In this document: positions 16,131 through 34,130 of the stretch, one piece after another | How the letters are laid out: every line of letters starts with the position of its first letter | Position numbering within the stretch: position 1 is the stretch's first letter | Assembly: GCA_015660815.1 (NCBI GenBank) | Contig: JACSDF010000002.1 | Span: 21,736 to 85,735, forward strand | DNA length: 64,000 nt | Source: Actinomycetota bacterium | GTDB taxonomy: Bacteria; Actinomycetota; Actinomycetes; Nanopelagicales; Nanopelagicaceae | Reading direction: 5' to 3' | The notes under the pieces: generated by a model | The model's database searches: none | What the model was told of the DNA's origin: nothing | The model's input: only the letters and a program-made list of their open reading frames with translations | Made by a program: the position numbers and the translations under genes

Positions 16131-16169
16131 AAATAACCCTCACTGGGAACAGTGAGGGTTATTTTTTTC
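16131..16169 (+). terminator. Rho-independent terminator after cold-shock gene (potentially bidirectional)
   Basis: AATAACCCTCACT-gggaac-AGTGAGGGTTATT followed by T-run; the minus-strand M23 gene ends at 16169. Confidence 0.9.
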
Positions 16170-16756
16170 TACTTCGGAACCGGTGGGATCTCACCAACTT
16201 TTAACTTTCTAGCTGCAACTTCTTTTACGGGCGATAAATCTCTGCCTATTTTCCACGCATCTAAATATTTCCAAGGCAATACCTCACCACGACGGACCCA
16301 CCATGTATCGGCCGGAGTCGGCCATGAGATTCCAAAGTGTAAATGCGGTGCAGTTCCGCGAGCGCTACCAGTCGCGCCGATACTCCCCAGCAAACGCCCA
16401 GCAGCAACCACTACTCCTGGCTCAATGCTGCGATGTATAGAACGCAAATGAGATCCGTAGTATCGAACGCCATCATCACCAATGATAGAAACATATAGTC
16501 CGCCGCGATCTATTCCTAGATTCGATTTCCCACTCCAACGATCGACTCGATTGACTTCATCAATAACACCGTTAATCGGTGAGACAAACTTACAACCTGC
16601 CTTTGCCAATATATCTGTGGCGGCATAATCATGGTGGGCGCGGGCATAGTTAACTTCGCATCCAGCTACTGGGAAAATATAGATTGGTGCTGCAAAAGCC
16701 GAGGTAAAGCTCGTCGAAGTTAGAATCAGTATTAACGAGAGTGTCAATTTCCTCAT
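16169..16756 (-). CDS. Secreted M23 (LytM-type) peptidase
   Basis: Signal peptide; YARAHHDYAATDILA and HLHFGISW metal-ligand motifs. Confidence 0.88.
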   Translation of the reverse strand: MRKLTLSLILILTSTSFTSAFAAPIYIFPVAGCEVNYARAHHDYAATDILAKAGCKFVSPINGVIDEVNRVDRWSGKSNLGIDRGGLYVSIIGDDGVRYYGSHLRSIHRSIEPGVVVAAGRLLGSIGATGSARGTAPHLHFGISWPTPADTWWVRRGEVLPWKYLDAWKIGRDLSPVKEVAARKLKVGEIPPVPK

Positions 16757-16799
16757 TGAGCGAGAATAACTTTAAAATCGCTTTAAAGCTTTGATTTAC

Positions 16800-17990
16800 T
16801 TACTTTTTAGTTTTAGAGTCGTTCTCTGCTTCAGTGCTCCGAATCACAGCCACAGTCCAGACAAGTTTGACTGACTTACCTTGAATCGAAATCGGTGATA
16901 GCGCTGGAGGCAGATTGCTTCCTAAAAAATATCCATTTTCTGTTGTCTCAATCTTATCTGGCAGACTAATGGTGTATTTAAGGTGATTTACTGAAGAAGC
17001 AGTCGTAATCATGTTGTTCATGCTTTGCGGGCTATCAATGAGTGCACGCAGATAAATCGAAAGAACTCCAGGCCCTGTTCCAATAACGTTAGCAGGGGTA
17101 CCCGTCGTACATGTTGTGGCTGTGGCCCATGTCGATGAACCACATGTTTGAACCCAAACTTTCAGCCCATTAGAAGCATCAACTAATATCCCATTAACCC
17201 CAAGTTCAGGAGTCGAAGATCCTGTTGCACTCACGTTGAGAGTTGGCGAACTCCAGCCAATATCAGCACCAGTTGTGTAATTCACAAATCTACTGATTGA
17301 GTCGGCGGGTCGTAATTTAGATAGATACGTTGCAAAGCCAACGCTCGTTTGTCCAGAAAAAAGCCCGTTGCTCAGCGTTAAACTCAAGGTCTCTGACTCT
17401 ATTTTCTTTTTCTCTTTTTTTAGTTTCTTTTCCTTAACTTCCTTTACCGGCGACAAATCCATTCCAGTTCGCCAAGCCTCTAAATACTTCAAAGGCATTA
17501 CTTCACCTTGACGCACCCACCAATTATCACTCGGCGTTGGCCAAGAGATTCCAAAGTGCAGGTGAGATGGTCCTCCTCGGGCATTGCCAGTAGACCCAAT
17601 AACCCCCAATGTGCGTCCAGCTATGACTTTGACCCCCGATTTAATATCGGCGGGTATGGCGGCTAATTGAGAACCCACGTAACGAACACCATCGTCACCG
17701 ATGATGGAAACATAAAGACCACCTCGATCATTGCCCAAATTACTCTTTGCGCTCCAACTATCGATTCGATTTACTTCATCTATTACACCATTGATCGGTG
17801 CTACAAATTTACAGCCAGCCTTTGCCAGTATGTCGGTGGCCTCAATATCGGAGTGGAAAGTGGAGAAAACAACTGCGCATCCCGTAACTGGAAAAATATA
17901 TTTAGGTGCTGCCGTTGCAATTGAACTGCCCACGGTTGTAATTAATCCAATAACAACGATCGCAAGAGAGAGTCCTGCTCGAAAGCGCAT
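16800..17990 (-). CDS. Secreted M23 peptidase fused to a C-terminal domain homologous to the 19106-19858 secreted protein
   Basis: N-term half parallels the 16169-16756 protein (FHSDIEATDILAKAGCKFVAPINGVIDEVNRIDSWSAKSNLG...HLHFGISWPTP); C-term half (LSLTLSNGLFSG...GLKVWVQTCGSSTWATATTCTTGTPANVIGTG...HLKYTISLPDKIETTENG...IQGKSVKLVWTV) aligns along its length with 19106-19858. Confidence 0.88.
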   Translation of the reverse strand: MRFRAGLSLAIVVIGLITTVGSSIATAAPKYIFPVTGCAVVFSTFHSDIEATDILAKAGCKFVAPINGVIDEVNRIDSWSAKSNLGNDRGGLYVSIIGDDGVRYVGSQLAAIPADIKSGVKVIAGRTLGVIGSTGNARGGPSHLHFGISWPTPSDNWWVRQGEVMPLKYLEAWRTGMDLSPVKEVKEKKLKKEKKKIESETLSLTLSNGLFSGQTSVGFATYLSKLRPADSISRFVNYTTGADIGWSSPTLNVSATGSSTPELGVNGILVDASNGLKVWVQTCGSSTWATATTCTTGTPANVIGTGPGVLSIYLRALIDSPQSMNNMITTASSVNHLKYTISLPDKIETTENGYFLGSNLPPALSPISIQGKSVKLVWTVAVIRSTEAENDSKTKK

Positions 17991-18030
17991 AGTCTCGCCC
18001 TAACTTTTAGAGTGGTAAATGAAGGAATTA

Positions 18031-19086
18031 TTAAGAGTTGGAGGTTGTGGCTGGTGATAGATCCGAAGTCGAGACCGATACTGAAATATTTAACGTCGTA
18101 GACCCGCTTGCAGGAGTCAGATGGGTTTTAATCCGTACTGATTGACCTGGAGTAAGCGCCAAAGTCAATTGTTGTGCCCCGGAACTTGAGGTTGTTGTTA
18201 AAACCGTGACCGCCGTCGTTGAACATGCACCTGTGGATTCCGTCCACGTGCCACTGCAGGTTGACCATGTGAGAGTGTTGCCGGCGCTTAATGCTGTACC
18301 TGTCTGCGTAATGCTCATGCTATTTATTGCTAAATCCCCCGTATTTTTCAGAGTGAAGAAACTAGAGGAGGTGCAGCCTGAAGGGCTAGTGAAGGCGATG
18401 ATTTGATTACTATCAGTATTTGGACCGGTTGCGGTATCGAATCTATTTGAGGCAGTCAATGCAACAATCGTGTTCGTACCTGAATTGAAGATATTGGCGC
18501 CTCGAAGAACCATACCTACCACCAAATCGGAAACTGATTCAACAGTTTCAATTTCTTTTCTATCGTTTACGCCACCAGTTACTGAATCTCGAACTTTATT
18601 AAGCCTTTTTGCAACCGTGAAAGTTAAGGTTGAACCACTTGCCGAAGTACTAGTTCCATTTGTCAATTCAATTCGATTTCCAGATAAAAGAGTTTTGATT
18701 CGCTGCACCGAGGATAGAGGGTCTGTCCCTACTGGATACGAGTTTGCAATTCCAACTCCAGTTACAAGATATCCGACTTGAAGACCAATGACATCATTGA
18801 GCGTGATGATTGTTCCACTCGTCCACGAACCGGATGTGGTCTTTGTAATGTCAGATCCTGAAGTACATGTAGAACTTAAGTTCATCGCATATGCACTACC
18901 AGCCCGGTCGGCGGAAGTAACGGTTTGATCCACTCCAGCGACCGCACCCCATGTCCCGCTTGAAATTCCTTGAGGGGTTACGTTACGAGTGATTGACTTT
19001 AATCCTGCATAAGCCAAATCGGCCTGAGAGGTCGTAAGCAACATCATTGATGTCACTACAACTACCCAGACCGATCGGCGCTTCAT
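18031..19086 (-). CDS. Secreted, Ser/Thr-rich surface protein, possibly TasA/camelysin-like with inserted repeats
   Basis: Signal peptide; post-signal motif TPQGISSGT matches TAQGINSGT of the neighbouring 19106-19858 protein; internal GYLVTGVGI.../GMVLRGANI... repeats. Confidence 0.65.
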   Translation of the reverse strand: MKRRSVWVVVVTSMMLLTTSQADLAYAGLKSITRNVTPQGISSGTWGAVAGVDQTVTSADRAGSAYAMNLSSTCTSGSDITKTTSGSWTSGTIITLNDVIGLQVGYLVTGVGIANSYPVGTDPLSSVQRIKTLLSGNRIELTNGTSTSASGSTLTFTVAKRLNKVRDSVTGGVNDRKEIETVESVSDLVVGMVLRGANIFNSGTNTIVALTASNRFDTATGPNTDSNQIIAFTSPSGCTSSSFFTLKNTGDLAINSMSITQTGTALSAGNTLTWSTCSGTWTESTGACSTTAVTVLTTTSSSGAQQLTLALTPGQSVRIKTHLTPASGSTTLNISVSVSTSDLSPATTSNS

Positions 19087-19105
19087 AATTTATATAGTGT
19101 CTAGA

Positions 19106-19858
19106 TTATGCGTTGGTATCTGTTGCAGCGGTCTGATCTACAGATACTGTCCAAACAAGCTCAACTGACTTGCCCTGAATTGAAAGAGCTGAGGCTGATG
19201 GAGCTGCAGATGTTCCCTGAAGATTTCCATTGGCTGTCGTCTCTGTCTTATCTGGAAGTGAGATTGAGTACTTCAAGTGATTTACAGAAGATGCAGTTCC
19301 GATGAGGTTGCTCATGCTTTGTGCTCCAGCGATTAATGTGCTGAGGTATACAGAGTTTGCACCTGCACCTGTTCCAATAACGTTGGCAGGTGTACCAGTG
19401 GTACATGTAGTTGCAGATGCCCATGTTGATGCACCGCAAGTTTGAACCCAAACCTTCAGACCGTTTGTGCCGTCAACTAAAATTCCATTGAGACCAAGTG
19501 CCGCACCTGATGGACCGGTTGCTGCGACAGCAAGAGTAGGTGTTTCCCATCCCATGTCAGCGCCAGTTGTGTAGGTAACAAAACGATTGATTGTGTCAGT
19601 TGGACGTACCTTAGTTACATAAGTTCCGAAACCGGTACTTGTTGTTGCACCAAATACACCGTTGCCTAGAGTCAAGCTCATAGTTCCCGAGTTAATTCCC
19701 TGTGCTGTTGTGTTGAATGCAGTTGCATTTAGATCCGCGCTGGCGCTTCCAACAATGTTTGCCACACCGATTAATGATGCAACGCCAAAAACGGCTACTT
19801 TGCCTGCGAGGCCCGTTAGGGACCACGAAGCTTTTACTAGATTGATCTTGCCTAACAT
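19106..19858 (-). CDS. Secreted protein, putative SipW-dependent TasA/camelysin-like surface or fibre protein
   Basis: N-terminal hydrophobic signal ending ...IVGSASADLNATAFNTTAQGINSGTMSLTLGNG; immediately downstream of a SipW-like signal peptidase; C-terminal IQGKSVELVWTVSVDQTA. Confidence 0.6.
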   Translation of the reverse strand: MLGKINLVKASWSLTGLAGKVAVFGVASLIGVANIVGSASADLNATAFNTTAQGINSGTMSLTLGNGVFGATTSTGFGTYVTKVRPTDTINRFVTYTTGADMGWETPTLAVAATGPSGAALGLNGILVDGTNGLKVWVQTCGASTWASATTCTTGTPANVIGTGAGANSVYLSTLIAGAQSMSNLIGTASSVNHLKYSISLPDKTETTANGNLQGTSAAPSASALSIQGKSVELVWTVSVDQTAATDTNA

Positions 19859-19921
19859 GATCGAACCTCTTCTTCTTTTTTATACTCACATAGCAATTTG
19901 CCAGGTGAAATTAAGTTGTGC

Positions 19922-20596
19922 TTATAGATAGTTAACTGTTCGGTTATTTTGATTTTGAGTAGGAGAAGTTGTTGTGGCGGGCACATATGTGACCGAAATT
20001 GAACTCAAATGCTCTCTAACCAAGTTCTCTACGCGCTCGGCAATTTCAGCGTCGGTAAGTGCTGCAACAACAGTTGGCTTTGCTGCTTCGACTTTGCGAC
20101 GTGCTTTTCGAATCGCGTAAATTAAATATGCAATCACGACCACTGCGCCCACTGTTTTAGTCGAAGTGGATGAAATGGCATCTAGTACAAACCCGATTTT
20201 TGGAACTGCGATTAGGACTTTCTGAATTCGAGAATCTGCATTAATGGTGATAGCAGGAGAATCAACTGCCGGGTTAGCATCACCTTTTGTTGTCATGATG
20301 GAATTCCGGTTATTGCTTATTGTCGAAACGACGCGGTGAGAAGTCTGCTCAAGGTTGTCGGGATTCACAAAGACAATAACGTCGCCGACCTGAACATCGC
20401 GTACCAGGACGGTGCCGGTGATGATTCCATCCCCGGCAGCCATGTAGGGCTTCATGCTGTCGGAGGTCACAGTAAAGATCCCCAAACCTAAGTAGACTGC
20501 TACTAGTGCCGGTACGAGCATCGAAATCATCGAGATCGCGGCGAATGCGATTGTCGAACGAAGCGTTGCACTGCCATTTTCCGTTTTCGAAGCCAT
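19922..20596 (-). CDS. Signal peptidase I, SipW/ER-archaeal type (Ser-His)
   Basis: FTVTSDSMKPYMAAGDGIITG (catalytic Ser box), GDVIVFVNPDN, TSHRVVS (His in place of general-base Lys); start at ATG 20596 preceded by AGGGGA (track ORF starts 20686). Confidence 0.85.
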   Translation of the reverse strand: MASKTENGSATLRSTIAFAAISMISMLVPALVAVYLGLGIFTVTSDSMKPYMAAGDGIITGTVLVRDVQVGDVIVFVNPDNLEQTSHRVVSTISNNRNSIMTTKGDANPAVDSPAITINADSRIQKVLIAVPKIGFVLDAISSTSTKTVGAVVVIAYLIYAIRKARRKVEAAKPTVVAALTDAEIAERVENLVREHLSSISVTYVPATTTSPTQNQNNRTVNYL

Positions 20597-20768: not shown

Positions 20769-20818
20769 AACTCAATTTTCCGATGAGAGCAGATTTTCTT
20801 GATATATAGTTGCTGGAT

Positions 20819-21505
20819 ATGGAGCTCAATGTGCCGGCGAAAAAGTTAGAAATCTCGGTTTTGATTGTGGAAAATGAGAGCCTTACGCGCACTTTGTTAT
20901 CCAATCTCCTCACTTCGGCAGGATTTCGAGTGGTGGGAGCGGTCTCTAGTGCAAAGGCCGCTTTGCCCCTATTTCGAAAATCCGCACCAGATGTCCTACT
21001 TCTTAACATCGACCTTAGAGAGGGGCCAACCGGCCTAGAGGTGGCCACTGCCGCCAGAAAAATCGCCCCCAACGTTGGAATCGCCTTTATTACCTCTATG
21101 ACCGACATTCGGACGATTTCGCCGGATCAGCCAGCCATGCCAGAGGCATCGGTTTATCTAAACAGTGCCGATGTTTCTACTATTGAGCAACTCGTTACCG
21201 CTATCCAAAGGGCTTTTGAGCTCGCAAAACCTGGGGCACCTATGGCTGCAAAAGCCGATGCCCTGAAAAGTGAGCCCCTTACTGATTTACAGTTTGAACT
21301 CCTGCGCCAGGTCGCACTTGGAAAATCAAATAGTGCAATTGCTGCCCTCAAGTTCACAACGGTAAAGTCCACAGAAAATGCAATCTCGCGCCTTGCAAAA
21401 AAGCTAAAGATTCCAAGTGATGACGCCAACAATCAGCGAGTTCTGATAGCTCGTGAATTTTATAAGTTAAATAGGGGCGATATTGGTGAGAATTCTCCAA
21501 ACTGA
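20819..21505 (+). CDS. Response-regulator-like protein with degenerate receiver and LuxR-type HTH
   Basis: LEISVLIVENESLTRTLLSNLLTSAGF receiver fold, PDVLLLNIDLREGPTG (Asn at phospho-Asp position), C-term LTDLQFELLRQVALGKSNSAIAALKFTTVKSTENAISRLAKKL. Confidence 0.8.
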   Translation: MELNVPAKKLEISVLIVENESLTRTLLSNLLTSAGFRVVGAVSSAKAALPLFRKSAPDVLLLNIDLREGPTGLEVATAARKIAPNVGIAFITSMTDIRTISPDQPAMPEASVYLNSADVSTIEQLVTAIQRAFELAKPGAPMAAKADALKSEPLTDLQFELLRQVALGKSNSAIAALKFTTVKSTENAISRLAKKLKIPSDDANNQRVLIAREFYKLNRGDIGENSPN

Positions 21506-22845: not shown

Positions 22846-23472
22846 ATGATTGCGACCCAAAGAGGTTGGAAGATAATTCTCGTTGCAGTTTTCGGCGGCT
22901 TAGTTTTAGGAGTTTCTGCGCGCCTTTGGATGAGATGGATTTCAACTGATCCAGAATTTACATGGAGCGGAACAATATTCATAGTTCTCGCTTTTACAAT
23001 TTTTGCTTCTGCGCAAGCCACTGTCTATGTCTTAAGAAGAAGAATTAAAACTAGACGTTTAACTACAGTAATTAGAGGTGGTGGAATATTACTTACCCTT
23101 CCACTTTTTACCGGAGCTGGTGGAGGAATGTTTCCAACTGTAGCTCTGGCGTCAATTGCACTGTGGCAAAAAAAGATAGATAGTAAAATACGTATTGCTC
23201 TCCTAGTAATTAGCTTGGTAATACCGGCAATTGGAATTAAAGGAATTGGTTCTGATTTTGGTTGGAATATTGCGACCTTAGGACGATCCTTGCTCGTTAT
23301 TTTCATTTACTCCGTAGTCATTCTTCTCTTGAAACCGACGGTCACCCCTTATATTGGCCCTGAATCAAGCACGTTAGCAAAGAGACGCTTCAAAAAAACT
23401 CTGACCTTCTTATCCATTGTTTTGGTAGCGTTTCTATTTCTAATCGCTACTGGAATATCGATTGACTTTTGA
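22846..23472 (+). CDS. Multi-pass membrane protein, uncharacterised family (paralog A)
   Basis: Hydrophobic segments; strong similarity to ORFs 26941-27564 and 27666-28298 (shared ARLWMRWISTDPEFTW). Confidence 0.8.
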   Translation: MIATQRGWKIILVAVFGGLVLGVSARLWMRWISTDPEFTWSGTIFIVLAFTIFASAQATVYVLRRRIKTRRLTTVIRGGGILLTLPLFTGAGGGMFPTVALASIALWQKKIDSKIRIALLVISLVIPAIGIKGIGSDFGWNIATLGRSLLVIFIYSVVILLLKPTVTPYIGPESSTLAKRRFKKTLTFLSIVLVAFLFLIATGISIDF

Positions 23473-24016: not shown

Positions 24017-25186
24017 TTACTTCGTTGGCATCAAAACCGCATCAATGCCATGTGCTATTTGTAGATTACCTTTGTTGATATCTACCTGTGCAAGAATCAC
24101 TTTTGGATCCTTTAACTTCTTGTTGTAGTCGCCTAGAGTGATTACTGTTCCCATTACTGAGACCTTAATCATTTTGCCTGAGAGAGCTGTCTTGAGTGAT
24201 GCACCATTAGCCTTCAATGCATCTCCGGACATAATGGCTGCTCCTGGTACCACGTGGAACTTAAGAATACTTTCAACAGTAGGTATTCCAAGTCCTGCCA
24301 CAGTTGCGAACGTTGCTGCTTCCGACTTTGGCTTCTTACCTGTCAACGCTGTAACTAGGTTCATGAATGCTTTGTCATTAGGGATAAATGCTGTCACAGC
24401 GGTTTTGCCATCTGTGAGAACTTTCACTGCTGAGTTTGGCTTAGCCTTTAGGACTGCCAACACTGCTGCTGTGACAATGTCATAGTTTGCTGAGTTGCTA
24501 TCAAATGAGCTCTTTGCTGTTAGAACAGCGGCGAGCGACTTTGTTCCAGGCTTCAATAACTGTACTGGAAGTAGGACTGCGTCAATCCCGTGAGCTACCT
24601 GCGCGTTGTCCTTGTTGATGTCGACTTGCGCAAGGATTACCTTTGGATCAACTGCAATAGTGTCGTAGTCACCCAAAGTGATTGTGGTTCCAACGACTGA
24701 GACCTTAATACTCTTGCCTGAGAGTGCACTTACTAGCGAGGCACCGTTTGACTTGAGAGCATCACCTGAGAGAATCGCTGCACCTGGAACAACGTGATAC
24801 AGAAGTACCTGTTCGATGGTGTCAATTCCCAAGCCGGCTACGGCAGTGAATGTCGCCTCTTCGGTGGCTGGGGTCGCACCGGTTAGAGCGGTCACTAAGT
24901 TTTCAAATGCTTTGTCGTTAGGGATAAATGCTGTGAGCCCAACTGTGCCATCTGTGAGCACTGAGACAGATGAGGCAGGCTTGGCCTTTAGAACTGCAAG
25001 CACTGCTGCAGTAAGGATGTCGTAATTCGTTGAATCCATATCAAATGAACTCTTCGCTGTAAGAACAGCGGCGAGTGACTTTGTTCCAGTTGCGCCCTGA
25101 GCTTGAGGGGCAAGGGCGATTGCACTTACGGCAAATAGTGAAACCAGTAGAGCCTTAGACACTCTTTTAACTGGAAGGGTGTTCAT
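24017..25186 (-). CDS. Secreted protein with two fasciclin (FAS1) domains
   Basis: Signal peptide; two copies of TAFIPNDKAF...HVVPGAA(I)..., VDINK...AHGIDAVL FAS1 H1/H2 motifs; internal ATG (MNTLPVKR) at 25186 likely the start. Confidence 0.92.
   Translation of the reverse strand: MNTLPVKRVSKALLVSLFAVSAIALAPQAQGATGTKSLAAVLTAKSSFDMDSTNYDILTAAVLAVLKAKPASSVSVLTDGTVGLTAFIPNDKAFENLVTALTGATPATEEATFTAVAGLGIDTIEQVLLYHVVPGAAILSGDALKSNGASLVSALSGKSIKVSVVGTTITLGDYDTIAVDPKVILAQVDINKDNAQVAHGIDAVLLPVQLLKPGTKSLAAVLTAKSSFDSNSANYDIVTAAVLAVLKAKPNSAVKVLTDGKTAVTAFIPNDKAFMNLVTALTGKKPKSEAATFATVAGLGIPTVESILKFHVVPGAAIMSGDALKANGASLKTALSGKMIKVSVMGTVITLGDYNKKLKDPKVILAQVDINKGNLQIAHGIDAVLMPTK
24020..25087 (-). repeat. 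Tandem internal duplication (about 180-aa unit x2) in the fasciclin gene
   Basis: Both units begin GTKSLAAVLTAKSSFD and end AHGIDAVL; units start at about 25087 and 24547 on the minus strand. Confidence 0.9.
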
Positions 25187-25422
25187 ATTTTCCTCCACAT
25201 AGGTTGTGACCTGCTTCAAGATGGACGATCCACCCCGATTCGGAAATTATGCACCTTCGACAAACATTAGGCAAACCCTAGACAATGATTTCATTATGAT
25301 TCCAATCACACGCATAGAATTGAGCGTGGTTAAGTCGAATTTTTGAGGGTTTCGGGAAAACAGAGGAGATTGAGCCGAGACTTGCGTACAAGGATTGTTG
25401 AATGTTGGGCTACTCTTAGACA

Positions 25423-26940: not shown

Positions 26941-27564
26941 TTAATCGGAAGACATTACAAAAACCCTAAGCAAATTAAACACCACAAAAATAGTAAAGAC
27001 TGCTATGAGAATCAATTTAAAGCGCTTTGTTAGTTCTACTTTCGAATCGCTACCTTCATATGGGGTGAGAGTAGGTTTCAAGAGAAGAATCACCACTGAG
27101 TAAATAAGAATGAAGAGAAGGGATCTTCCTAGGGTTACAAAATTCCAACCGAAATCAGATCCTATACCTTTGATTTGAATTGCGGGAATTACAAAACTAA
27201 TTACTAAAAGTGCAATTCGAACATCTTTATATATTTTTTTCCGCCAGACTGCAATCGAGGCCAATATGACGGTCGGAAACATTACAGCTCCAGCCGCAGT
27301 AAAGAGTGGAAGGGTGAAGAAAGTTCCAACCCCTCTAATCACAGAGGTAAGGCGTCGAGAAATTACTCTCCTTCTCAAGACATAAATAGTTGCTTGAGTC
27401 GTAGCAAAAATCGTAAAGGCGATGACTATGCCTAATGTCCCACCCCAGGAAAACTCAGGGTCGGTCGAAATCCATCTCATCCAAAGGCGTGCAACAATTC
27501 CAAGGACGAGGCCGCCAAAAACAGCAGCAAGAATTATCTTCCAGCCTCTTTGGGCGACAATCAT
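26941..27564 (-). CDS. Multi-pass membrane protein, uncharacterised family (paralog B)
   Basis: MIVAQRGWKIILAAVFGGLVLGIVARLWMRWISTDPEFSW..., close match to paralog A along full length. Confidence 0.8.
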   Translation of the reverse strand: MIVAQRGWKIILAAVFGGLVLGIVARLWMRWISTDPEFSWGGTLGIVIAFTIFATTQATIYVLRRRVISRRLTSVIRGVGTFFTLPLFTAAGAVMFPTVILASIAVWRKKIYKDVRIALLVISFVIPAIQIKGIGSDFGWNFVTLGRSLLFILIYSVVILLLKPTLTPYEGSDSKVELTKRFKLILIAVFTIFVVFNLLRVFVMSSD

Positions 27565-27665: not shown

Positions 27666-28298
27666 CTAGACTCCAGGTATACCAACAGTAAAGATGAAGA
27701 AGATCCCGCCGATTGCCAGTATCGCCACGACTAAGAGAATCTTCTTTCCTTTACTCATTTTGACCAATTCAGATGATTCATTTCGAAAAGGTGACATTGT
27801 AGGTTTCGTTGCGAAAGTTACAACACTGTAAATCGCCACAAAGAGAAGGATCCGACCTAATGTTGCAAAACTCCATCCAAAATCTGAAACGATATCTCTT
27901 GAAATTGTTACTGGAATAATTAGAGATAGTAGAAGTAGTACTCCCTTTGTGCGTTTTCCGAGTGCGGGATTCCAAGTGGCCACCGATGCCAATGCCACTG
28001 ACGGAAACATCATTCCACCAGCACCCGCAAATATAGGTAGTGAAAAAATAACACCACTTATACGGATAAGGAGCACGCTTCGCCTGCTCTTGAAACGTTG
28101 ACGAAGCATTTTAACTAAAGATTGATTGACCATAAAAATCGTAAAAGCTATTACGATAAATATCGATCCGCTCCACGTAAAATCTGGTTCAGTCGCAATC
28201 CATCTCATCCATGCTCGTGCAACTACGCCTAAAACAAAGCCCTTTACTAGGGCGGCGAGAACAATCTTAATTTTTTGCCTGACGGCGCTTGCTTCCAT
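27666..28298 (-). CDS. Multi-pass membrane protein, uncharacterised family (paralog C)
   Basis: KIVLAALVKGFVLGVVARAWMRWIATEPDFTWSGSIFIVIAFTIF, same architecture, more diverged. Confidence 0.78.
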   Translation of the reverse strand: MEASAVRQKIKIVLAALVKGFVLGVVARAWMRWIATEPDFTWSGSIFIVIAFTIFMVNQSLVKMLRQRFKSRRSVLLIRISGVIFSLPIFAGAGGMMFPSVALASVATWNPALGKRTKGVLLLLSLIIPVTISRDIVSDFGWSFATLGRILLFVAIYSVVTFATKPTMSPFRNESSELVKMSKGKKILLVVAILAIGGIFFIFTVGIPGV

Positions 28299-31547: not shown

Positions 31548-32216
31548 ATGAATGAACGTGTGCTTGTTGTTATTGATGATGGATTCGAACTTTCTACGTT
31601 AGTTCCTGCCCTCAGATTGCATGAGCTAGATATTATCGGTGAAGCAAGAAGTGAGAGCGTTGCACTTAATCTCCTTAATAGATTGCAGCCCGATGTAGTT
31701 CTGCTTGACATGCATATTGCAGGAGTGTCTGCAATTAGAATTGCCGTAAATATTCGTAAATTGAATCCCAAGGTAGGAATAGTTATTTTGGAGAGCTGCT
31801 CGGATGTTCGTCTTCTAGGCGACCGACATATTGATATACCCATCGGAACAAAAGTAATCCTCAAAAAATCAGCTACCGATCTCTTAGTTTTGTGTACAGC
31901 AATTGCCGACTCCAAAGTTTCGGCCAATGAAAAGCATGAAGTTTCATGGATAAATGGAAGTGTTTCTATAAAAGAAAACTCGCTACACGGCTTACTCGCA
32001 CATCTGACTGATGTGCAAGTTCAAACACTTCGTTTAGTGGCCGATGGCTTAACAAATGCCCACATTGGTCGCGTCAGATATGTAAGTGAAAAATCGGTTG
32101 AGCAGATCATCTCTCGAATGGCTCAGGAGTTTAATATTCAGCAGGACCACGACAGAAATATGCGAGTGCAGCTGGTTAATGAGTTTTACAGGTGGCTAGG
32201 CGCGCCTCACCACTAA
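31548..32216 (+). CDS. Response regulator-like protein (paralog of 20819-21505)
   Basis: NERVLVVIDDGFELSTLVPAL; PDVVLLDMHIAGVSAI (phospho-Asp retained); C-term LTDVQVQTLRLVADGLTNAHIGRVRYVSEKSVEQIISRMAQEF. Confidence 0.82.
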   Translation: MNERVLVVIDDGFELSTLVPALRLHELDIIGEARSESVALNLLNRLQPDVVLLDMHIAGVSAIRIAVNIRKLNPKVGIVILESCSDVRLLGDRHIDIPIGTKVILKKSATDLLVLCTAIADSKVSANEKHEVSWINGSVSIKENSLHGLLAHLTDVQVQTLRLVADGLTNAHIGRVRYVSEKSVEQIISRMAQEFNIQQDHDRNMRVQLVNEFYRWLGAPHH

Positions 32217-32256: not shown

Positions 32257-32514
32257 ATGGAGTTAGATGAGTTGCGAGGGCGCTGGAACGAAGTTCTCGA
32301 TGAACTATTGCTTCAAGACCGTGTTGCATGGCTGGCTTTTTTCGATGCCCGTCTAGCAGATTTTGATGGAAAGACACTCACGTTGGATTTTTCTGATAGT
32401 CGAAAGCTTGGCAGCGCCCACGAATACTCCGAGGCAAGAGATAGAGCGCAACAATTATTAACCGTCACCATACAATCTCTTTTTTCACTTGACGTTACGA
32501 TTGTAGAAAAATGA
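32257..32514 (+). CDS. Hypothetical protein
   Basis: 85-aa ORF, 4-nt overlap (ATGA) with the following GH25 gene. Confidence 0.65.
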   Translation: MELDELRGRWNEVLDELLLQDRVAWLAFFDARLADFDGKTLTLDFSDSRKLGSAHEYSEARDRAQQLLTVTIQSLFSLDVTIVEK

Positions 32515-34130
32515 AAATCCGAGCTGGTTTAACTGCAATTCTCCTTGGCTTTTTAACTATTGGAGTTCCAAACACGCAGGCTTCAATGGCTCAACTCTCG
32601 CTTACCGTGCGACAAACACCATCATCTAGTGAAGCGCTATTAACTTTTTATGGAACTATGAAGCCTGCGAGAGCGGGAACAGCAGTAACGATTCAGATAA
32701 GAAACTCCGGAGTTTGGGAGAAAACTCGATTTAGTACCAAAACTACGAAAGCTGGTACATGGAAGATTGTGGCGCTTGCAACGGCGCTTGAGTCAAGAGT
32801 GGTTTACCGAGCTAGTGCGAATGCAAGTGGAAATAATATTTACTCGCCAATGCGCACGATAACTATTAAGCAGATGGCCGAGTTTTCAGAGAGCGACCCA
32901 GCAATGGTGTTCGGTCTGTATGGCCCTGGTGGGCGTATCCATGGCGCAGACATCAGCCGATGGCAACATCCTAATGACCAAGCTATTGACTTCGTGAAAA
33001 TGTATGACGCTGGAATCCGATTTGTCATGATCAAAGCATCAGATACCCGAGACGAATCCGATGCCCTTGCTTTAAAGTATTTAGTGATGGACCACAGCGC
33101 TGCACAAGCTGCCGGTATTTATACAGGTTTTTATCACTACACAACTCTGCCTGATGTAGAAGATGCCGATTCGATTATTCGAGATGCCACAGCACAGGCA
33201 CAGAAAGTTATTTGGCGTTTAGCATCAATTGGTGGATATACCGAGCGCGATTTGCCGTATGCATTAGATCTTGAAAATAAGTGTGTCCGTGTATCGTCGA
33301 CTGGAGCTTGCCTAAAATATGCCTCACGTAACGCAGTAACGCTATGGGCAACTACATTTCTAGCACTTCTTAAAGAAAAAACTGGGAAAACTCCAATCAT
33401 GTATTCATACTCCAGTTTCCTTGAGGGCTCCATGAATCGAAGCGTTGAACTCGCACAATATCCATTGTGGTTAGCCCACTATGCAATCGATCCAGCAAAT
33501 CCCGTAAATCAACCAGGACTTAAATCCAGCGGTTGTTATGTACATTCATGGACAAGTGCAAACTGTGATTCGCAGTGGACCATGTGGCAGTACTCATCAT
33601 GTGGAATAGCACCTAAATATGGAGTACCAGGGTCACGTCTTGATCTAAATGTATTTAGAGGTACTCCGCAGGCTTTCTTAGATCTTATTCAAGGTAGTTG
33701 GACGCCAACGCCAGTTGATTTACTGCCCTTCAATGAGCCAACTTTCATGACCTTGTTAGGGCAGACCTCAACGACCACGAATAAACCGGTGAGTTTCAAT
33801 GTCACCGTTGTGCGCCCAGATTTAACTCCAGTTGTAACAGGTAGCGTAAAATTGGTTTTTGATCCACTGAATGTGCCCATTGAGAGACCAAAACAAAGTG
33901 TTGTACGTGCAACTAGCGGGGTTTGGACGCTCTCGGTTAAAGGTCTGGCCGCAGGCACATATGTGGGAAGAATTGTCTTTGAGGATATAACTCAAACACA
34001 TGCAAAAAGTTGGCTACCAGTAACTTTCACTCTTGAACAGGGTGCGATACCAACAATTACTCCAACTCCTACTGTGAAACCAACGCCAAAGCCTTCAGTT
34101 GATGGATGCAGAAACCAAATTAAGAACTAA
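32511..34130 (+). CDS. Secreted GH25-type lysozyme-like protein with flanking beta-rich domains
   Basis: HGADISRWQHPND...GIRFVMIKASDTRD...GIYTGFYHYTTL...YALDLENK...MYSYSSFLE...WMWQYSSCG: GH25 motifs; C-terminal TPTPTVKPTPKPS linker. Confidence 0.87.
   Translation: MKIRAGLTAILLGFLTIGVPNTQASMAQLSLTVRQTPSSSEALLTFYGTMKPARAGTAVTIQIRNSGVWEKTRFSTKTTKAGTWKIVALATALESRVVYRASANASGNNIYSPMRTITIKQMAEFSESDPAMVFGLYGPGGRIHGADISRWQHPNDQAIDFVKMYDAGIRFVMIKASDTRDESDALALKYLVMDHSAAQAAGIYTGFYHYTTLPDVEDADSIIRDATAQAQKVIWRLASIGGYTERDLPYALDLENKCVRVSSTGACLKYASRNAVTLWATTFLALLKEKTGKTPIMYSYSSFLEGSMNRSVELAQYPLWLAHYAIDPANPVNQPGLKSSGCYVHSWTSANCDSQWTMWQYSSCGIAPKYGVPGSRLDLNVFRGTPQAFLDLIQGSWTPTPVDLLPFNEPTFMTLLGQTSTTTNKPVSFNVTVVRPDLTPVVTGSVKLVFDPLNVPIERPKQSVVRATSGVWTLSVKGLAAGTYVGRIVFEDITQTHAKSWLPVTFTLEQGAIPTITPTPTVKPTPKPSVDGCRNQIKN

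Follow-up and report, generated by a model that had tools for sequence, protein, structure and literature searches.

Most work on TasA-type filaments has been done in Bacillus and some archaea, and we found no description of a TasA or camelysin system in actinobacteria in the open-access literature. Each subunit of a TasA fibre lends its N-terminal strand to the following one, and TapA also has a donor N terminus (PMC9674648, PMC10151520). The nearest known systems to the locus described here are the tapA-sipW-tasA operon of Bacillus subtilis and the CapP-TasA-CalY system of Bacillus cereus. Like the former, this locus has a dedicated Ser-His signal peptidase, a TasA-superfamily major subunit with a conserved mature N terminus, and a single accessory secreted subunit whose N terminus is donor-like (PMC9674648, PMC10151520). 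It departs from the B. subtilis operon in its gene order (SipW, TasA-like, and an accessory protein that we call sec2), in the collinearity of sec2 itself with the TasA-like profile, and in having an invariant cysteine pair, -TNS tails, adjoining response regulators and, in this genome, an M23 fusion. The B. cereus sipW-tasA/capP/calY region resembles it in combining camelysin paralogues with an accessory protein; in that system, where CapP is a wall-located chaperone, filaments are assembled and located at the wall independently of sortase (PMC13082335). CapP attaches via a disordered C-terminal domain, whereas in the protein in question here a filament-type subunit is linked to a folded, degenerate M23 domain. 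Small freshwater actinobacteria appear to carry a compact TasA-type version, which bears on how such filaments are attached to cells.

Organization of the locus

The window, by which we mean the whole 64,000-nucleotide stretch analysed, comes from a 1.59-Mb genome with a completeness of 98%. A scan of genome contigs gave only two named relatives, and the nearest named relatives are uncultured actinobacterium MAGs. A viral origin was considered and rejected, as a single IMG/VR scan gave no relative and sec2 has no match in PHROGs. Five codirectional ORFs occupy the minus strand between 20596 and 16169, and all five genes of the initial annotation were recovered. In 5' to 3' order they code for the signal peptidase, a TasA-like protein (P4), sec2 (P3), an M23-TasA fusion (P2), and a stand-alone M23 peptidase (P1), with intergenic gaps of 63, 19, 40, and 43 bp; all features within these genes given below are likewise on the minus strand. 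A terminator-like hairpin with a 15-pair stem (16131..16164, no strand assigned) lies 3' of P1, the last gene. Upstream of the operon and divergent from it is a response regulator gene (20810..21505, plus strand) whose product has a receiver domain (REC, PF00072) and a weak LuxR-type helix-turn-helix, and which is a probable regulator; the whole genome has 14 receiver-domain matches. At another locus (L129, 3612-5369), a histidine-kinase-like gene adjoins the response regulator that neighbours the cassette, and there is no kinase at this place in the window.

The signal peptidase (224 aa; 19922..20596, with an ATG start at 20596) contains the catalytic Ser motif SDSM (residue 45; 20453-20464) and the catalytic His motif TSHRV (residue 85; 20330-20344), and this Ser and His, in place of a Ser-Lys dyad, are kept in 47 of 47 homologues. 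It scores 74.7 bits with TIGR02228 (sigpep_I_arch, cut-off 51.85), 25.8 with the LepB-type model TIGR02227, well below the cut-off of 47, and 50.7 bits with the Bacillus SipW equivalog NF046067, against a cut-off of 190. These scores and the conserved Ser and His make it a SipW/archaeal-type enzyme that is nonetheless not a Bacillus SipW, in keeping with the Ser-His (SipW/ER-type) assignment first made from the two motifs. The alternative that the operon peptidase is an ordinary Lys-type LepB was rejected because of its low TIGR02227 score; an ordinary LepB is encoded elsewhere in the same genome.

The TasA-like protein and sec2

P4 (250 aa; 19106..19858) was initially taken to be a TasA/camelysin-like secreted protein, and its membership of that superfamily is supported by comparisons made largely through its relatives. 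By itself, P4 matches no Pfam or NCBIfam model, and it falls below the 22.5-bit cut-off of the camelysin family PF12389. This cut-off is passed by five of the eight relatives scanned singly (50.6 bits for L014, 32.0 for L106, 30.8 for L111, 25.3 for L013, and 22.7 for L107), the best match spanning nearly the whole model, and P4 is tied to these relatives by a 14-protein alignment (A4). Pfam camelysin is matched at E values up to 0.1 by 11 of the 14 family members. The TasA equivalog NF046066 (cut-off 450 bits) is not matched by P4, and the best relative reaches only 30 bits. The two best matches in a sequence-profile search of the PDB are TasA, with marginal E values, and TasA also ranks first to fourth (best E 2.7e-3) when the PDB is searched for similar folds with a model whose mean pLDDT is only 45. 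A second model has a mean pLDDT of 39. The modelling covered proteins of the window, L129, and L130; shallow alignments gave these poor models, and we therefore treat the fold evidence for a TasA jellyroll only as supportive.

The predicted layout of P4 is a donor strand followed by an acceptor sandwich. The putative donor strand and hinge span residues 41-60, ADLNATAFNTTAQGINSGTM (19679..19738), in which A41, L43, A45, A47, and G58 are invariant in A4; by a simple segment test, the donor segment is missing or eroded in just two of 66 family proteins, which are discussed below. The pair Cys141/Cys152 is invariant in all 66. The C-terminal residues are [TVS]N[SAG] in 42 of 67 TasA-like and 17 of 43 sec2 proteins. 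TasA-like proteins from other families of the class (L161-L165) have TQR..-type tails such as TQRAGEAR, and a TNS tail is therefore not found in all members.

The second secreted protein, sec2 (P3, 351 aa; 18031..19086), shares with P4 the motif after the signal peptide that had been noticed in both, and appears TasA-superfamily-like. A single hhalign comparison aligns it collinearly with the TasA-like profile (global Prob 98.0, E 1.5e-12), and the two profiles have in common a donor-like N terminus, a C..W..C pair, and the C-terminal tail. No Pfam family was matched by the sec2 set. What distinguishes P3 is a looped-out insert (18373..18867), bounded by Cys74 and Cys238 and composed of two tandem modules of about 80 residues with a GM-V-G-GI-like motif. 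Across the family the modules are about 76 residues long, and the sec2 proteins come in three sizes, with no insert, an insert of 74 to 77 aa (one module), or an insert of 154 to 172 aa (two modules), each placed inside the same further cysteine pair; P3 of the window belongs to the longest class. Such modules point to interchangeable domains for display on fibres of this kind.

Conservation of the cassette

By a profile built from P4 and its relatives, the TasA-like family is present in 44 of the 296 genomes of the order and in 8 of its 17 genera; of 395 genomes of the class, 29 match a similar profile. Forty loci were fetched and annotated together with earlier ones, and 44 loci carry a TasA-like gene. 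A signal peptidase gene lies within 1.5 kb in 43 of these 44 and a sec2 gene within the same distance in 42, as expected from the association of the peptidase with the secreted proteins proposed at the outset. All three genes co-occur in 41, most commonly in the order SipW, TasA-like, sec2, and this grouping is far beyond chance; the conserved core is therefore three genes. A response regulator lies within 1 kb of the TasA-like gene in 36 of the 44 loci. One locus (L118, G088:C11, 4681-15917) packs five signal peptidase, six TasA-like, and two sec2 genes into an array of about 11 kb, numbers far above those of other genomes.

Conservation of the order of all five genes, envisaged in the initial annotation, does not hold. 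P1 (16169..16756) belongs to the core gene set of the genus, with orthologues in most same-genus genomes and a fixed site beside DUF3145 and SIMPL genes, also in genomes that have no operon; it is probably a neighbour outside the conserved cassette. As P1 is such a resident and only one genome shows the fusion, a conserved five-gene system was rejected.

An M23-TasA fusion

P2 (396 aa; 16800..17990) joins a Sec signal, a degenerate M23 domain, a Lys/Glu-rich linker, and a TasA-like domain without a donor segment. Identity is 67% between its N-terminal M23 half and P1 and 65 to 66% between its C-terminal half and P4, which bears out the initial claim that the C-terminal half of this M23 protein is a homologue of 19106-19858. 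The Sec signal looks ordinary, so SipW need not process P2. No other M23-TasA fusion is present among the fetched loci.

The active site of the M23 half is degenerate (17553..17858; residue numbers H42, Y44, D48, and H103 are those of P1). P1 itself is intact, with HHDY..TD, SHL, and HLH making up the M23 pattern of H(x)nD and HxH, with a further His some 30 aa ahead of HxH. The corresponding parts of P2 read FHSDIEATD (H42 to S and Y44 to I) and YVGSQL (H103 to Q), with D48 and HLH retained. H103 is conserved in all 33 other M23 orthologues, and H42 and Y44 each in 32 of the 33; His41 and His42 are both conserved in those proteins, and either could be the zinc ligand. By alignment, position 103 is the equivalent of LytM His260, which we used as the mark of an active M23 domain and which P2 lacks. 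The Pfam M23 score of P2 is 28.6, against a cut-off of 28.7. The role of His260 in LytM is established, and M23 proteins with degenerate catalytic sites still have functions (PMC9662197). EnvC and NlpD, with degenerate M23/LytM domains, are comparable to P2 in keeping the M23 fold while having lost catalytic residues and in having a non-cleavage role (PMC9662197). Unlike the role proposed here for P2, theirs is to activate amidases. To our knowledge, no EnvC/NlpD-type degenerate M23 protein is joined to a filament subunit.

The TasA-like half (16803..17393) starts at ETLSLTL, has an altered C-terminal tail, and is without segment 41-58, which bears the LxAxA pattern in P4. Given strand donation in TasA (PMC9674648), P2 should be able to accept a strand and not to give one, and we read it as an acceptor-only subunit on a degenerate, putatively peptidoglycan-binding domain. 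The only other failure of the segment test among the 66 proteins is a paralogue in genome G010 (L011, 8556-9314), whose N terminus aligns ambiguously, such that the segment may be eroded and not absent. In the tree, P2 and the G010 paralogue each lie beside the normal TasA-like protein of their own lineage (support 85/80 and 100/99), which indicates separate duplications, and the G010 paralogue is also on a long branch.

P2 evolves faster than its parents, with long branches in both halves (0.44 versus 0.077 and 0.57 versus 0.12). For the M23 half compared with P1, pN is 0.23 and pS 0.73, and for the TasA half compared with P4, pN is 0.21 and pS 0.65; with pN far below pS in both, the frame has been constrained for much of its history, with the caveat that synonymous sites are close to saturated and that the fast branch would also allow for a recent relaxation.

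A possible filament and its attachment

We propose that the operon makes a TasA-type surface filament, and this part of the reading, taken alone, is likely to be right. The dedicated Ser-His signal peptidase would mature P4 and P3; P4 would join by donor-strand exchange, its freed N-terminal strand (LxAxA..SGT) filling the groove of the next subunit, and P3 would be a minor subunit, acting in initiation or display, with its modules looped out. It is very unlikely that the SipW substrates are instead monomeric or loosely multimeric surface proteins that form no donor-strand filaments: the structure models are weak and the filaments are deduced from sequence, which leaves some room for this idea, but both the extreme conservation of the mature N terminus and the relationship to TasA point to strand exchange.

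P2 would have arisen in this lineage by duplication and fusion of the TasA-like gene and the core M23 gene next to it. Having a groove and no donor strand, P2 would sit only at one end of the filament; its M23 half, with catalytic residues lost, plausibly still binds peptidoglycan, so that P2 would close off the filament and hold it to the wall with no sortase involved. This one genome offers a direct candidate anchor, a strand-accepting, non-donating fibre subunit on a broken wall enzyme. Sortase has zero matches in the 98%-complete genome, and if the fibre is attached, another anchor is therefore needed. The suggestion of a built-in wall anchor, made in the initial annotation, appears to be strengthened by the missing donor strand, the degenerate M23 site, and the lack of a detectable sortase; against it, P2 is found in one genome and evolves fast, which also fits relaxed constraint. 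We regard the whole mechanism, from filament to P2 anchor, as evenly poised between right and wrong. That the locus represents a sortase-independent anchor, in which an acceptor-only TasA-type subunit is joined to a catalytically dead M23 domain that holds the filament to peptidoglycan, and that subunits without a donor strand arose on two independent occasions, is a tentative and somewhat doubtful proposal.

The position of P2 in the filament could also be the reverse. Tip adhesins have a functional N-terminal domain followed by a pilin domain that has no donor strand, and P2 is built like the FimH-type tips of chaperone-usher fibres, whose donor-less C-terminal domain confines them to the fibre end; this is an analogy, for which we claim no homology, and there is no usher or chaperone here. 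P2 would then occupy the outer end, with its M23 half binding the peptidoglycan of other cells or debris in cell-cell or particle adhesion. If, as in the Bacillus model, a TapA-like initiator at the cell gives the first strand (PMC9674648, PMC10151520), an acceptor-only subunit would be outermost, and this makes the tip role a serious rival. We nevertheless consider it unlikely: the nearest exposed peptidoglycan is that of the cell's own wall, and nothing in the present data fixes the polarity of the filament. It seems similarly improbable that, within a TasA-type cassette, P2 is merely the product of a recent duplication, has little or no function, and is heading for loss. Its occurrence in a single genome, the long branches of both halves, and the lost catalytic residues would all be expected of such a gene, but its 396-codon frame is intact, its pN values of 0.21 to 0.23 contrast with pS values of 0.65 to 0.73 to its paralogues, it is codirectional within the operon, and the donor segment was independently eroded in parallel in G010.

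Other genes in the window

Several other genes in the window are of note. Three paralogous small membrane proteins (22846-23472, 26941-27564, and 27666-28298) belong to no assigned family, and the one scanned against Pfam, 26941-27564, gave no match. A secreted protein with two fasciclin domains (24017-25219) is a possible further adhesion protein. A second response regulator gene (31548-32216) looks, by eye, like the one next to sec2 in L011, and it adjoins a GH25 lysozyme-like gene (32511-34130).
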